Below the pieces are notes generated by a model, which had not been told where the DNA came from, made no database searches, and was given only the letters and a program-made list of their open reading frames with translations. Below are positions 1,586 through 7,865 of a DNA stretch of 24,307 nt, piece by piece. Every line of letters starts with the position of its first letter. The first letter of the stretch is position 1. This DNA comes from a virus. Made by a program: the position numbers and the translations under genes. Location: positions 1-24,307 of the IMG/VR virus record IMGVR_UViG_3300047560_000147. The stretch is one strand, 5' to 3'.

Positions 1586-1939
1586 ATGACAGTTCAAGAA
1601 TACGTTAGTGCATTAATGGAGATTGAGAATGTATCTCACATCGCACACTTACAGACATCATCATTCGCAGAGCACAAGGCTTTGAATGAATTATATGACG
1701 GCATCGTTGACCAGTTCGACGCTTACGTTGAGGCTTACCAAGGCAAGTACGGCATCATCAAAGGATACAAGTCTTTTAAATTAGAAGAAAACGTTGATAT
1801 GGTAGATTACTTGAAAGAAAAGATGACAGCATTTGAAGGATACCGTTCTACATTAACTGATGGTTACTTACAACAAATGGTTGACAACACTCAAGAGTTA
1901 TTAAGCTCTACACTTTACAAACTAAGATTTTTAAGTTAG
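1586..1939 (+). CDS. Small helical phage protein with Dps/ferritin-like metal-site spacing (DUF5856-like)
   Basis: A 117-aa, almost entirely helical protein resembling a conserved family of phage proteins (I believe DUF5856). The region HIAHLQTSSFAEHKALNEL followed by YDGIVDQFDAYVEAYQG looks like helices A and B of Dps. H18, H30, D45 and E49 have spacings of 12, 15 and 4 residues, the same as the E. coli Dps ferroxidase ligands H51, H63, D78 and E82; the fifth ligand (D67) would be N34. Residues 69-117 can supply two more helices, giving a minimal four-helix bundle, shorter than Dps (167 aa) and without its basic N-terminal tail. The start is ATG after an A-rich leader with no Shine-Dalgarno. 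Iron oxidation or DNA protection is inference from spacing; an unrelated helical protein remains possible. It is the last plus-strand gene before a convergent terminator. Confidence 0.8.
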   Translation: MTVQEYVSALMEIENVSHIAHLQTSSFAEHKALNELYDGIVDQFDAYVEAYQGKYGIIKGYKSFKLEENVDMVDYLKEKMTAFEGYRSTLTDGYLQQMVDNTQELLSSTLYKLRFLS

Positions 1940-1962: not shown

Positions 1963-1990
1963 AAAAAGGGGACTTATGGTCCCCATTTTT
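1963..1990. terminator. Bidirectional intrinsic terminator between convergent gene blocks
   Basis: GGGGAC (1968-1973) and GTCCCC (1979-1984) form a perfect 6-bp GC-rich stem with loop TTATG. It is flanked by AAAAA on the left and ATTTTT on the right, so a U tract follows the hairpin on both strands. It sits between the stop of the plus-strand Dps-like gene (1939) and the stop of the minus-strand giant ejection protein gene (1992), so it can end transcription from both blocks. Confidence 0.88.
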
Positions 1991-1991
1991 A

Positions 1992-4900
1992 TTATTTAGC
2001 TTCTTTTTCTATCGTCTGTTTTACTTTTTCATTTAGTCTTACAACTTCAGAAGGCAAAATATTACTTGCTCCCAGTAATTCCACAGCCAATACTAATCCT
2101 AGTTTTTGCTTGTCTTCATTAGATAACTCTATCTCGTTGCCAAATTTATCAACATAGCTATCACTAGATATTTTATATATAGTATCACCCATGTTTATGA
2201 AAGGTTTAGTAGCCACTTCTGGGATACCTCCTATTAGATTCAACATAGCATCTAATTCACTTTCAGGTTTGTATGAAAATAACTTAAACTTATCTTCTTC
2301 ATCCAAATCAGTTTGGGCTAAATCCAATAAACCATTCATGATTCCAACTACTGCTTTATCTCCGATATTAGGTATTGGTGATAATACATCAGTAGTAAAT
2401 CTAGTGAATGCAGAATTTATATACTGATTTCTTCTTTTCTCTTTTTCATCTTCGTCCTCATCGATACCAAGTATTGAATTTGCCGCAATAACAATTCCAG
2501 AACTAATAGCAGCAGACATTGCTTCAAAAGCAACCATCTCAGCACCAGTTGCCGTTAATGATTTTAATGCATCAATTTTATCTTGCTTGTTAGAATTCTT
2601 AGATGTAAGAATAGTTACATCTGTAGTTATTTTATCTTTAGCATTGAAAATAAAACTACTAAATGGTATCACCATTGATCTAGCAATAGTTGCATATGGA
2701 TTCTTAGTTGTCAGGAACTTACCCATCATTGCCGCATCAGATACGTTTTGTTGTAAATTGATTTGGTCTTCTGCGTAATCACCAGCTTCTTTAACTAACT
2801 TGTGATTTTTCCAATCAATATTATCTGTGTTGTATCCAAGTTGCTTCAACTTATGAACATAATATGCCATCCAAGATGCTCTAGCTCCTAAAACGTCACC
2901 ATTCTTAAGTGAGTATTCTAGATATATCTTACCTGCCTTTGCTACAGTTTCCGCTACCTTATTAGCTGAGTTAACATCTGTTTGCTCAATAATCTTATTT
3001 GCAGATTCAATGGCTGTCTGTGATTCTAAACCACGATTAGCAATACCATATCCTGAATTATTCAAGAAGTCCATTGCATCTTTATTAGTTAATAAAGACA
3101 CACCTTTGCCAAATGACTTAGGATCATTCATCAATGAAACAGCTGTGTTAACAAGGGCTGTTGATGCTTGTTTGAGACCTGATAAAGCACCACCTAAAGC
3201 ACGAGATGTTCCGTATCTACTAACTGCTTGGATAACTTTAGCAAAAGCCTTTTCGTTAACAGAACCAGTAGCTACATTTTTAGAGCGAACCTCGTTTACA
3301 TAATAGTTTAATTTATTTTGAATTACATTTCTTTCTCTAACATTTGGATAAATCTTTTCAAATGCAGGAGACTGAACAAATCCTCTGTATTGTTGAACAG
3401 AAGGTGCAGTTCTTACATCTGTAAGCATTTTGTGAAATGCAGAAGAGTTATTGTAATCAAAATCAAAACTTATTACACGATTCTGAGGAATACCTTTGAT
3501 ACGATTATTCTTCATTAATGTGCCTGATTTAGATTGATTTAAGAAATCAAATCCCATTCTATATGAAGAAGGCTCATTAACATCCTTAGATTTGTCTTCT
3601 ACAATATTTTCATAGTTATCAGTAGAATAATTAATATCATCTTCCAATATAGTATTGTAAACAGATGCTGCAATCTGCTTTACCTCAGGATAGTATTTAT
3701 CAAAAATAGCATTCCACCACTTAACCGCATCCTGATTAATTGGGTCTATGTATGATTCAACCTGACTGATATCTTCAGCATCTTTTATATTCTCAAATAT
3801 TGAGTCAATAATCTTACCTCTTTTTACTAACTTGTCATCTTGAGATTTTAATAAAGCATCAATGGTTTCAACAATTTGATTTTTACGTCTGTCAAATTCA
3901 ACTTTCATTTCCTCAGCCGTACCCACAACATTTCTTCTTAAATGTGCATAGATACCTCTTTCGAATACATTCTCTACATCATTAAAATCCTTGTTGTTTG
4001 GTTTTTTCTTCCCAAATTTCTCATTGTAAGCCTTATCTATATTATTAGCTTCTGTTTTAGCTCTACTTGATTGATTTGATAAATCACGAAGACCCATTGC
4101 ATCAAAAACTTTTGATCCAACAGCACGACTTCTGTGAACTAAATCCAATGTAGATTTAACAGGCGAGAATGCAGATGTCCAAGCCTGAGACAAGAAGTTC
4201 ATTCCCTTACCTCCAAAGACTCTTCTGAAACTTTCTGCTACTATGCCTTGATTAGCTAATCCTGTTGCCTTCTCTGCACCTTCATAAGTCTTGTACATTG
4301 TTTCCATATTATCAACAATGCCATTAACTAAGAAGTTTTCTAATGCCTCCACAGCTCTGTATGAGTCTCTAACAGACATATCATTCAAATCCATACTAGT
4401 GAAGTTCTTAATTAGATTTTTTGTGTAATTATCTAATTCAACTTCTTCTCCTGTAAGTGGATTGTATTCTTCGTTGACAATTGAATCTACGATATCAGAC
4501 ATTGAATCAAACAATTCACCCAAGTTTTCTCTAATCTTAGCTTCATTAACAGTTGCATCAGGTTTAGTACCTGATTCTACATCCATTACATATTGTTGTA
4601 TTTGAGCTAAACTCATAGACTCATCTATTAATCCAGCTTCAGCTAGATAATCGTATTGGTCAAGTAAAGTATTCTTTACCTTCTCTTCTTGTTTAGCTAA
4701 CTCTTTCTTTGTGAATGCATTGATATCCTCAATAAGAGCAGCTGCTCTAATTGGTTTTTTAATAGCACCATACACCTCTCTAGCTTTTTCTAGATATTGG
4801 TCAACATCTGTAAACTCTGGTATCACTTTACCAAAATCCCTAGCCATGTTAGCAACAGATGCCTGCAACGTATCTGACTTGGCTAACTTTTTGATTTTAT

Positions 4901-7865
4901 TTCTAAAAGTAGTTGCCTCCTTAATTCTATCCTGATAGTCAGCACGCTTGAACATCTTTTGCATACGTTCAAATAAACGCTCACGCATTACAGGGTTTAA
5001 GATGTTAGTTTTAGCTAAAGAGCTTAATAAAGACTTTTGTTGGGCTTTACTTAATCCACCTCTAGTAATAAAAGATTTAACCTTTTCTACTACATCTTTT
5101 CTGATTTGGTCAGTAGCTTTCTCGGATCCTTTAGCTGCTTTAGATTCAAGTTTTATTTGGTCTTTAAGTGCAGTCATTTCATTGACTGTAACTTTCTTTT
5201 GAGTAGTTTCACCCATTACCTTTTTAACAGATGGAGCCTTCTTTTCTTTTACACCAAACTTCTTATTGATGTCACGAAGCATTTGCTCACGAGTAACGTC
5301 ATCCGCTTGTTCATAGGCAATTGTTTTTTGCATAAATGCAATACCACCTTCGACAGCTTTCTTTAAAGGTCTACCACGCTCCACAGCTTTATTAACAGCA
5401 TCAATTCCTTTTTTAACTGCAGTAACTTGTTCTGCCTTTTGTTGAGGTGTAACTACTACTTCTTCTTTAACCTCTGTGGCAGAAGTTGGTTCTGTTTTAA
5501 GTGATTTAGAGGCATCAAGAACTAGTATGTTTTCAATACCTGACTTTAAATCTTTTTGATCAATATCAGTATATCTTACCGCCTCAAATCCTCTTTCTTT
5601 TAATGTGTCAAAAACCCTCTTTATGTCTTCTTCAGAAAATGCCTCATCAAATCTAGGATCAATAAGTTCAAAGAAATTTCCAAATGAATCTAGCCCCAAT
5701 TCTTCCATTATATCGAAAGCCTCTTGTTCGCTAGCTATTTTATTTTTGTCTAAAAAGAATTTTGACACTTCTCCACCAGACATCTTTGCATACTCGTTCG
5801 CTTGACTAGCATCTTCTGATACGTACAAAGGTCTACCTTCTTCTAATGAAGGTAAATCTCCACCATGAAATACTTCAATTGTTTCAGAAGGAGTTGTTAC
5901 TTCTTCGACTTTAACTTCTTCTATAGGTTGTTCTAATGCTGCTAATTCTGCATCGTATTTAGAATTAATATTTTCTTTTAGTTTTTCAAAACCGGTTCTT
6001 TGTGCTGATTCTAATTCAAGCTTTCCGTGTGTACCTGATTTTGTCCACAGTCCAGTTTCAGTATCTTTTCGCTCAAGTTTTCCAGTAAATTCATTAATTC
6101 TATAAATAATATTATTAGGGTCGCCTACTAACTTAAATTCTCCATCTTCTATAGTTGGTTTTCTGTCGTATACGACTCTATTTTGCAACTCCTCTTTTCT
6201 TCTTCTTTCTATTTCTTCCCTTTTATCTTCTTCGGCAGGGACTTGAGGTTCTGCTTGGGGTTCTCCTTTCGCCACTTCTCCGCTAATTCCGGTTTCTGGC
6301 TGTACAGATATTTGACTTGTTGCTTGCTTTTGAATGGCATCTTTTTGTTGTTTAAGGTTATTTTGTTGTTTTAATAAATCATCTAATAATAACTTCTTTG
6401 CGTTATCATCCATAGCCGCATCGTCAATAATAGACTTTGCACTATTATAGTTTTCTTCTAATTTATCGTCAATGTCAAATATTTCTTTTACCTGATCCGC
6501 AGATAAATTTTCAGCAATCTTTTCATTTTCAAAAACAATAGCTTCATTCTCTGCTAATAATTCATCTATTTTTTTATTGACAATCTCATTAACACGAGGG
6601 TCAACATCTTCTCCGTGCTCAAGATTTAGACTTTGAATAGTCTTAATATTATTGTCTATCTTTTCTATTTGCTCTTTAGGCATAATTTTGCCTGCTACAT
6701 ATCTTCTTGCTGCACCAACACCAGCTCCTGTAGCTGATATGCCTCCTCCTGAAAGTCCACCTAGAATAGCACTATTGCCAACCTTCTTAGCTAAATCCCA
6801 AAATTTAATTTCTTCACCTTTTGTTATCTTGTCTGATAACTCTTGAATTAAAGTTGTGGCTCCTTCAGAAGCCCCTTCTTGACCAAAATCTTTAAAGATA
6901 GACTTAACAAATCCTTCAGCAACTGCTTTAGATGCAGTAGGATTTCCTAATGCAGCCTTAGCTGCTTTACCTAAAATCTTTTGAGTTGTGCCTTCAAATA
7001 CAGCTTCAGCCGCACCAGTAACTCCAGCATTTAATAGTTGACCTATGCCAACATTCCCTTCTTTTATTACATCTTCAGCTCTTTTAGCTGCAGCAGCCGT
7101 AACTCCCATTGCAGGTAAACTAACGGCACCAATAGCCATATATGGTATAGATTCTACCGTAGTCTTTAATCCTTGGTAAAGAATTTTCTGAATGGATTCT
7201 GCATTTGGGTTATCTTTAAATTTAGATAACTCATCTATAACATCAACCTCCTCTTGGCGAGTCTTCTTGTAGATGTCTTCAGATTTTTTATTAAGATAAT
7301 CTGTAGCTTCTTGAGATGCTTGTGCAAAGCGACCTGTAGGTGTGGCTGCACTAAGAGATCCTGCTATTGCATCTCTTACTTGCTTCTTGACATTCGATGG
7401 TAATTTATTGAAATCACTAGAGCGTCCGGTTACACTAGACATAATATCTATAGCAGCATTTTGTGCAAACTGAGGTACAGCAGCAATAGAAGCTAATGCT
7501 TTAGCACCAGCTCCTTTAAATGAATTCCAAAGGTCATCAATAACACCAACCTCTTCTTTACCTGCTTTTGCAGGAGAAGCCACAAGTCCACTCCCTTGAA
7601 TCTTTGGAGATACCGATGAAGTAGGTTTTGGAGCTGGTTGACCAACGGATTCCGTAGAATTTTTTTTTTTTAATATATCTAAGTCCGACTCAGTAATACT
7701 CTCTGAGAAGTTATCAATAGGAATAACAGAATCGCCATCTAAAATACCATATTGCCCTTGCTTCTGAACAAGTTTCATATTCTCTGAAATAGGTAATACT
7801 GTGTTAGACGCTTCGTCTAAGATACCATATTGGCTACCTTTTTTTACTAATCTTTGTTTTGCCAT
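1992..7865 (-). CDS. Giant internal virion / DNA-ejection protein (T7 gp16-like position, polyvalent type)
   Basis: A 1957-aa protein, probably packed inside the capsid and ejected with the DNA. Order of parts: two WG-like repeats each containing QYGILD (about 1-52); a low-complexity linker containing an A12 run; hydrophobic, Gly/Ala-rich segments (about 235-295 and 362-385) with the EGASEGATTLIQ pattern typical of phage ejection proteins; charged coiled coil (about 395-515 and 545-650); an ADP-ribosyltransferase-like domain (about 664-790); long helical stretches; and near the C-terminus PFSSFIFNAKDKI with a hydrophobic segment at about 1772-1801 suited to membrane contact. I see no lysozyme or peptidase motif, unlike T7 gp16, which has a transglycosylase domain. 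It follows GNAT-, gp14- and gp15-like genes in the T7 order. The leader is A-rich, and the gene ends at the bidirectional terminator. Internal-virion function is inferred from context and composition. Confidence 0.75.
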   Translation of the reverse strand: MAKQRLVKKGSQYGILDEASNTVLPISENMKLVQKQGQYGILDGDSVIPIDNFSESITESDLDILKKKNSTESVGQPAPKPTSSVSPKIQGSGLVASPAKAGKEEVGVIDDLWNSFKGAGAKALASIAAVPQFAQNAAIDIMSSVTGRSSDFNKLPSNVKKQVRDAIAGSLSAATPTGRFAQASQEATDYLNKKSEDIYKKTRQEEVDVIDELSKFKDNPNAESIQKILYQGLKTTVESIPYMAIGAVSLPAMGVTAAAAKRAEDVIKEGNVGIGQLLNAGVTGAAEAVFEGTTQKILGKAAKAALGNPTASKAVAEGFVKSIFKDFGQEGASEGATTLIQELSDKITKGEEIKFWDLAKKVGNSAILGGLSGGGISATGAGVGAARRYVAGKIMPKEQIEKIDNNIKTIQSLNLEHGEDVDPRVNEIVNKKIDELLAENEAIVFENEKIAENLSADQVKEIFDIDDKLEENYNSAKSIIDDAAMDDNAKKLLLDDLLKQQNNLKQQKDAIQKQATSQISVQPETGISGEVAKGEPQAEPQVPAEEDKREEIERRRKEELQNRVVYDRKPTIEDGEFKLVGDPNNIIYRINEFTGKLERKDTETGLWTKSGTHGKLELESAQRTGFEKLKENINSKYDAELAALEQPIEEVKVEEVTTPSETIEVFHGGDLPSLEEGRPLYVSEDASQANEYAKMSGGEVSKFFLDKNKIASEQEAFDIMEELGLDSFGNFFELIDPRFDEAFSEEDIKRVFDTLKERGFEAVRYTDIDQKDLKSGIENILVLDASKSLKTEPTSATEVKEEVVVTPQQKAEQVTAVKKGIDAVNKAVERGRPLKKAVEGGIAFMQKTIAYEQADDVTREQMLRDINKKFGVKEKKAPSVKKVMGETTQKKVTVNEMTALKDQIKLESKAAKGSEKATDQIRKDVVEKVKSFITRGGLSKAQQKSLLSSLAKTNILNPVMRERLFERMQKMFKRADYQDRIKEATTFRNKIKKLAKSDTLQASVANMARDFGKVIPEFTDVDQYLEKAREVYGAIKKPIRAAALIEDINAFTKKELAKQEEKVKNTLLDQYDYLAEAGLIDESMSLAQIQQYVMDVESGTKPDATVNEAKIRENLGELFDSMSDIVDSIVNEEYNPLTGEEVELDNYTKNLIKNFTSMDLNDMSVRDSYRAVEALENFLVNGIVDNMETMYKTYEGAEKATGLANQGIVAESFRRVFGGKGMNFLSQAWTSAFSPVKSTLDLVHRSRAVGSKVFDAMGLRDLSNQSSRAKTEANNIDKAYNEKFGKKKPNNKDFNDVENVFERGIYAHLRRNVVGTAEEMKVEFDRRKNQIVETIDALLKSQDDKLVKRGKIIDSIFENIKDAEDISQVESYIDPINQDAVKWWNAIFDKYYPEVKQIAASVYNTILEDDINYSTDNYENIVEDKSKDVNEPSSYRMGFDFLNQSKSGTLMKNNRIKGIPQNRVISFDFDYNNSSAFHKMLTDVRTAPSVQQYRGFVQSPAFEKIYPNVRERNVIQNKLNYYVNEVRSKNVATGSVNEKAFAKVIQAVSRYGTSRALGGALSGLKQASTALVNTAVSLMNDPKSFGKGVSLLTNKDAMDFLNNSGYGIANRGLESQTAIESANKIIEQTDVNSANKVAETVAKAGKIYLEYSLKNGDVLGARASWMAYYVHKLKQLGYNTDNIDWKNHKLVKEAGDYAEDQINLQQNVSDAAMMGKFLTTKNPYATIARSMVIPFSSFIFNAKDKITTDVTILTSKNSNKQDKIDALKSLTATGAEMVAFEAMSAAISSGIVIAANSILGIDEDEDEKEKRRNQYINSAFTRFTTDVLSPIPNIGDKAVVGIMNGLLDLAQTDLDEEDKFKLFSYKPESELDAMLNLIGGIPEVATKPFINMGDTIYKISSDSYVDKFGNEIELSNEDKQKLGLVLAVELLGASNILPSEVVRLNEKVKQTIEKEAK
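5496..5876 (-). other. ADP-ribosyltransferase-like domain within the giant ejection protein
   Basis: Residues 664-790 of the 1957-aa protein follow the layout of ADP-ribosyltransferase domains found in phage polyvalent proteins: IEVFHGG (H667) at the start, RPLYVSEDASQANEYA (Y681) as the second block, then GFEAVRYTD and a final GIENILVLDASKSLK (E778). H667, Y681 and E778 would be the H-Y-E triad. The YVSED...A..YA and ENILVLDASK blocks resemble the usual 'FTSDPEIANSYA' and 'YIVFDPSQIK' patterns. Activity and target are unknown; the domain may be degenerate. Confidence 0.5.
7660..7671 (-). repeat. A12 homopolymer (potential slippage site) in the ejection protein gene
   Basis: Twelve consecutive T on the plus strand give A12 in the coding strand, covering the end of codon 65 through codon 69 (Leu-Lys-Lys-Lys-Asn). 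Adding one A opens a frame ending after about 102 residues in total; losing one A gives about 123 residues. Either product would contain the WG-like N-terminal part and little else. It is the longest homopolymer I see in the window. Confidence 0.9.

Follow-up and report, generated by a model that had tools for sequence, protein, structure and literature searches.

A miniature Dps-like protein of family DUF5856 with a conserved putative ferroxidase site in tailed phages

The 117-residue protein P0001, encoded in a 24,307-nucleotide stretch of viral DNA (IMG/VR record IMGVR_UViG_3300047560_000147; hereafter the window), is probably a miniature Dps-type ferritin-like protein with a putative inter-subunit ferroxidase site, and as such would guard phage DNA and the early infected cell. 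The most economical reading is that this protein and its relatives in family DUF5856 are Fe(II)-oxidising, sequestering proteins of Dps chemistry that are made together with late genes and that virions often carry. An earlier note, made from the sequence alone, had pointed to the Dps ligand spacing in this protein. The reading frame, its coordinates and the four residues named there were found exactly as described, and one of the four was reassigned (Table 1).

Table 1. Positions in the window of the DUF5856 gene, its predicted helices and the codons of key residues.
Feature	Position	Strand	Basis
DUF5856 gene, 117-aa miniature Dps-like protein (P0001)	1586..1939	+	Pfam PF19174, PHROG 858, AlphaFold2
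Helix A, residues 3-21, ligand H21 at its end	1592..1648	+	DSSP on model
H18 codon, second-shell His (HP-NAP His22, not Dps H51)	1637..1639	+	HMMER profile alignment; 68/69
H21 codon, predicted iron ligand (Dps H51, HP-NAP His25)	1646..1648	+	alignments; 69/69
Helix B, residues 27-55, with H30, Y37, D45, E49	1664..1750	+	DSSP on model
H30 codon (Dps H63, HP-NAP His37)	1673..1675	+	alignments; 69/69
Y37 codon (HP-NAP Tyr44, near ferroxidase centre)	1694..1696	+	profile alignment; 69/69; PMC4192664
D45 codon (Dps D78, HP-NAP Asp52)	1718..1720	+	alignments; 69/69
E49 codon (Dps E82, HP-NAP Glu56)	1730..1732	+	alignments; 69/69
Helix C, residues 72-87, 16 residues	1799..1846	+	DSSP on model
Helix D, residues 93-116	1862..1933	+	DSSP on model
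Terminator-like hairpin that could serve both the DUF5856 gene and the 1957-aa ORF converging on it, in the gap between them	1968..1984	.	hairpin scan

Gene, family and predicted fold

The ORF begins with ATG and runs for 117 codons. It is preceded by an endonuclease VII gene at 1138-1548 (PF02945, E 3.6e-21), and a 1957-residue ORF on the minus strand (1992-7865) converges on it; the hairpin scan found two terminator-like hairpins where 0.4 were expected in shuffles. The endonuclease VII gene also occurs in locus L002, and other close relatives have no match at that place; it has the look of a mobile insertion that separates the metallophosphoesterase gene from the DUF5856 gene, two genes that stay near each other in most close relatives. 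The convergent ORF has almost no family match, is highly variable among close relatives (25-77% identity) and probably encodes a large virion protein. The remainder of the window encodes terminase, portal and virion proteins and forms a module for the phage head and packaging; comparison of the portal related the phage to those of Flavobacterium, Cellulophaga, Maribacter and Tenacibaculum, and no tRNA or Rfam match was found in the window. Two identical viral loci (L007 and L008, 6001-6354) carry a DUF5856 gene that is intact except for a TAG stop at codon 12. Recoding of TAG was considered and rejected, as the adjacent ORF is open and coding coverage hardly rises with readthrough, and because no sign of recoding was seen nearby the stop suggests a natural loss or a rare variant.

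The protein is a full member of DUF5856. It matched PF19174 at E 3.8e-19 over residues 21-113, covering all 94 profile positions (1-94) with 70 bits against a gathering cut-off of 34.6, and it matched PHROG 858 at E 3.2e-21. Pfam gives the family no function, and a literature search for papers naming DUF5856 found none. The earlier statement that the family lacks an assigned function nevertheless needed correction: PHROG 858 is labelled 'starvation-inducible transcriptional regulator', RefSeq also has a Dps-derived name, which in both cases looks like a transferred one, and a member was modelled as ferritin in PMC10892097. Hundreds of relatives of the window protein are present in IMG/VR, and 1,403 records of sequenced phages contain a relative of T4 rI.-1. 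No cellular relatives turned up in scans of bacterial genomes and plasmids, which reach close relatives only. Among 14 control genomes, a sub-threshold match to the DUF5856 profile appeared only in Bacillus subtilis, perhaps to one of its Dps proteins.

The AlphaFold2 monomer model is a confident four-helix bundle (pLDDT 95.6, pTM 0.89). A Foldseek search of the PDB returned Dps proteins as leading matches, with probability 1.00 and a TM-score by query length of about 0.7, at modest E-values (0.02 at best). Structure prediction and structure search thus agreed on the Dps-like fold that the earlier note had envisaged. A separate model of T4 RI.-1 (pLDDT 91.1) again found mostly Dps, although its alignment takes in the window's family and the two models are therefore not fully independent. 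Foldseek matches of the window model also extended to crAss-like phages and two giant viruses. In BFVD, the entries A0A6J7WIS1 (a prohead protease of 432 residues) and A0A8S5MNG7 (a NUDIX hydrolase of 713 residues) matched the mini-Dps model; these are possibly fusions, possibly generic helix similarity.

Sequence profiles led to the same relatives. The single window protein reached the H. pylori Dps, HP-NAP, only at E 0.25, while a profile of 37 family members reached it at E 2.7e-6, with further Dps chains below E 1, and addition of T4 members brought this value to 5.3e-7. The best non-Dps match of either profile was a de novo helical bundle, at E 0.011 and 0.0022, respectively, so that the Dps signal stands clear of generic helix similarity. 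With hhalign the same alignment to Dps was obtained at weak statistics (E 2.3e-4, probability 44%). The Pfam Ferritin profile (PF00210) did not match P0001, and matched five of the 37 family members weakly, below its cut-off (best E 0.01).

The putative metal site

We followed the conservation of the site in a main set of 69 homologues, filtered at 90% identity. H21, S26, H30, L33, Y37, D45, E49, G53 and Y111 were invariant in all 69, and H18 was conserved in 68, so the four residues that the earlier note had named were all retained or very nearly so. In a deeper set of 12 sequences reaching down to 21% identity, the only invariant columns were H21, H30, D45, E49, Y111 and L113; T4 and jumbo-phage members keep all four ligands. 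The chance of finding the four designated ligands among six invariant columns is 2e-6, a figure to be read as no more than a guide, since the alignment is itself anchored on conserved columns. The conserved columns contain no ExxH pair, and an intra-subunit di-iron site of the classical ferritin, bacterioferritin or rubrerythrin kind was therefore rejected.

The earlier note had read H18, H30, D45 and E49 as the Dps ligands H51, H63, D78 and E82 because of their spacing. The pattern H-x11-H-x14-D-x3-E has one match in the protein, starting at residue 18, and appeared in 28 of 100,000 shuffled copies, the pattern having been chosen after inspection; its occurrence is more than chance. In both the HMMER and hhalign profile alignments, however, Dps H51 was paired with H21, with a three-residue gap ahead of H30. 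The window side of the profile alignment reads H18 I A H21 L Q T - - - S S F A E H30 K A L against H22 N F H25 W N V K G T D F F N V H37 K A T in HP-NAP, and over its full length it pairs H18, H21, H30, Y37, D45 and E49 with His22, His25, His37, Tyr44, Asp52 and Glu56. Four of the 69 relatives have three extra loop residues after H21; in these the H21-x11-H30 spacing is exact and that of H18 to H30 becomes x14. Three of the four read HW at the ligand histidine, as in the Dps signature, and one distant member reads HHW, with Arg at position 18 and H21 retained. The gapped alignments and the longer-loop relatives together ruled out H18 as the counterpart of H51.

In HP-NAP, the iron ligands are His25, Asp52 and Glu56, and His37 helps to hold a second metal in the zinc form; His25 and His37 belong to one subunit and Asp52 and Glu56 to the other, and in the apo protein Asp52 forms a salt bridge with His22 (PMC4192664). 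Because the alignment pairs them with HP-NAP His25 and His22, H21 is the predicted first ligand and H18 a predicted second-shell residue. The assignments of H30, D45 and E49 made earlier thus stand and that of H18 passes to H21, and the 'exact spacing' of H18 is a coincidence of a loop deletion and a conserved HxxH. The A-H pair at residues 20-21, previously listed as an extra shared feature, is present but in fact corresponds to E. coli A50-H51. The test by convergence of the ligands, named in the earlier note, does not apply to the monomer model, because the Dps site lies between two subunits.

Several elements of Dps are missing from the protein. Trp52, Gly56 and Arg83, which were invariant in our Dps comparison set, are replaced by Leu, lost with the Gly-bearing loop and absent, respectively, and a Dps-type Trp occurs in four of the 69 family members. 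Residues 56-71 form a loop in the model where Dps has the BC helix. Because these residues and this helix are missing, the Dps dimer or dodecamer may not form. There is also no basic N-terminal tail, residue 3 being already the first of helix A, and with a pI of 4.7 and a net charge of -8 the protein is acidic. E. coli Dps coats DNA through such a tail, which is typical of that protein but is not found in all Dps. DNA binding by a basic tail was accordingly rejected, and with no tail on an acidic protein, DNA coating of the E. coli type is unlikely. This stripped, acidic mini-Dps is more likely a ferroxidase than a DNA-coating protein.

T4 rI.-1 and virion association

The T4 gene rI.-1 is a DUF5856 member (PF19174, E 5e-33) and is named so in the T4 record; in RB49 the gene at the same place after rI is annotated rI.-1. 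The ligands of T4 RI.-1 are H33, H42, D57 and E61. In T4 (locus L194, 2453-2839) the gene overlaps the end of the antiholin gene rI by four bases, and this overlap suggests coupled translation of the two. T4 sublines differ by a frameshift at rI.-1 codon Glu61 (PMC8573959), which is the counterpart of ligand E49. This frameshift and the early stop in one close relative indicate that the gene can at times be dispensed with, and in laboratory culture it seems dispensable, as expected of a stress-protection gene.

The position of rI.-1 directly after rI, reported as one operon, and the slight delay in the collapse of lysis inhibition on its over-expression (both Golec et al. 2010, as cited in PMC6832632) raise the alternative that the protein is a lysis-timing regulator that binds RI, RIII or the holin, its His/Asp/Glu cluster being a structural metal site. 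We consider this unlikely. The effects are weak and come from plasmid over-expression, and many members do not sit beside rI, lying instead in the structural cluster of Ackermannviridae, next to a podovirus portal gene or, in the window, after endonuclease VII. In addition, RaK2 has an RI.-1 homologue yet is without T holin and RI (PMC3622015). For a function of Dps chemistry, the T4 data are thin but compatible.

Members of the family have been detected in virions. LIMEstone1 ORF78 was found in the virion proteome with three unique peptides and 28% coverage (PMC3296691), and Sajous1 gp217 in CsCl-purified virions with 10 spectra and a Phyre2 'Ferritin' score of 96.7 (PMC10892097). The ValerieMcCarty03/04 proteins gp108/gp100 gave 26/27 spectra in CsCl virions, above the cut-off of 15 that the authors had set from known virion proteins (PMC13119998). 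We confirmed that all of these genes are DUF5856 members; LIMEstone1 and Sajous1 are Ackermannviridae, and ValerieMcCarty03/04 are T4-like. A putative late promoter is annotated just upstream of the LIMEstone1 gene, the member gene of Ackermannviridae lies within the structural cluster, and in 51 of 78 loci of a podovirus clade the start of the gene lies 0-12 bases past the portal match. Virion detection can reflect carry-over, and neither the proteomes nor the gene context prove that the protein lies inside the head. For the window phage's own clade, a literature search found no virion proteome.

Proposed role and comparison with known systems

In the mechanism that we propose, two subunits would pair as in Dps, and H21 and H30 of one subunit with D45 and E49 of the other would form the iron site, with H18 and Y37 in its second shell. 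Fe(II) would be oxidised there, probably by hydrogen peroxide, and consumption of the two would remove both reactants of Fenton chemistry. Unlike E. coli Dps with its basic tail, the protein would not coat DNA. Given that it appears to be carried in or on the virion in several phages, the likely benefit would be that packaged or freshly injected phage DNA and the early infected cell are spared iron-driven damage.

Three further explanations were weighed against this ferroxidase. A four-helix protein that scavenges or chaperones copper or zinc would account for the HxxH and further histidines, and the copper protein CopM was among the weaker Foldseek matches; but the full Dps ligand set is conserved together with the second-shell His and Tyr, and Dps ranked above CopM in the structure searches with both the window protein and T4 RI.-1, which makes this explanation improbable. 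Slightly less probable again is a dead Dps descendant that serves as a structural or scaffolding part of the virion and keeps the ligands only for folding. Loss of the loop Trp and Gly, the shortened A-B loop and the virion detection would fit such a protein, but few positions of the family are as well conserved as the metal ligands, and a purely structural role does not readily explain this. An iron-loaded virion decoy ('Ferrojan horse') that aids adsorption through iron-uptake receptors, as proposed for the virion-found member Sajous1 gp217, is very improbable, since, by the authors' account, the efficiency of infection was similar on tonB, feoB and double mutants (PMC10892097).

More widely, DUF5856 might be an old, virus-only mini-Dps lineage that acts as a virion-packaged ferroxidase in many tailed phages including T4 and guards packaged and injected DNA, a proposal that we put forward only tentatively. 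Encapsulins, which carry ferritin-like cargo, offer an analogy. The mini-Dps idea is not wholly new, because a 2024 paper already called a Vi01-like DUF5856 member 'ferritin' (PMC10892097) and a Dps-derived database name exists; phage-borne Dps was also known (PMC8008677). New here are the definition of an invariant ligand set, the correction of one histidine, the placement of T4 rI.-1 in a Dps-like family and the joint view of virion detection in two phage families. The correction changes which histidine to mutate, and T4 rI.-1, a gene of unknown mechanism, becomes a concrete enzyme hypothesis, a tail-less minimal Dps. If true, oxidative DNA protection would be a feature shared by many virions, and a laboratory phage would offer a Dps-type ferroxidase of very small size for study.

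Among known systems, the Dps family (E. coli Dps, Listeria Dps, H. pylori HP-NAP, B. subtilis MrgA) has the four-helix bundle in common with the window protein, and its ligands H51, H63, D78 and E82 correspond to H21, H30, D45 and E49 in the same order and place, as do the second-shell HP-NAP residues His22 and Tyr44 to H18 and Y37. The A-B loop of Dps is three residues longer, and the 117 residues of the window protein are indeed far fewer than the approximately 144-167 of Dps, as the earlier note had remarked. T4 RI.-1 (MobD.6), which adjoins rI, has the family and the four ligands in common with the window protein, but its N-terminus is longer and it is 21% identical. The Sajous1 'ferritin' gp217 is likewise a virion-found, ferritin-modelled DUF5856 protein, from Ackermannviridae, unlike the window phage, and in the accessible text its authors point out neither the ferroxidase ligands nor how widely the family is spread (PMC10892097). 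Full-length Dps of Streptomyces and Lactobacillus phages and of 'Gratiaviridae' are phage-borne as well, and that of phage Coruscant has the same ligand set as the window protein (PMC8008677). Coruscant Dps reaches Pfam Ferritin (E 1.5e-11), however, and DUF5856 members do not; they make up a lineage of their own, seen here only in viruses.
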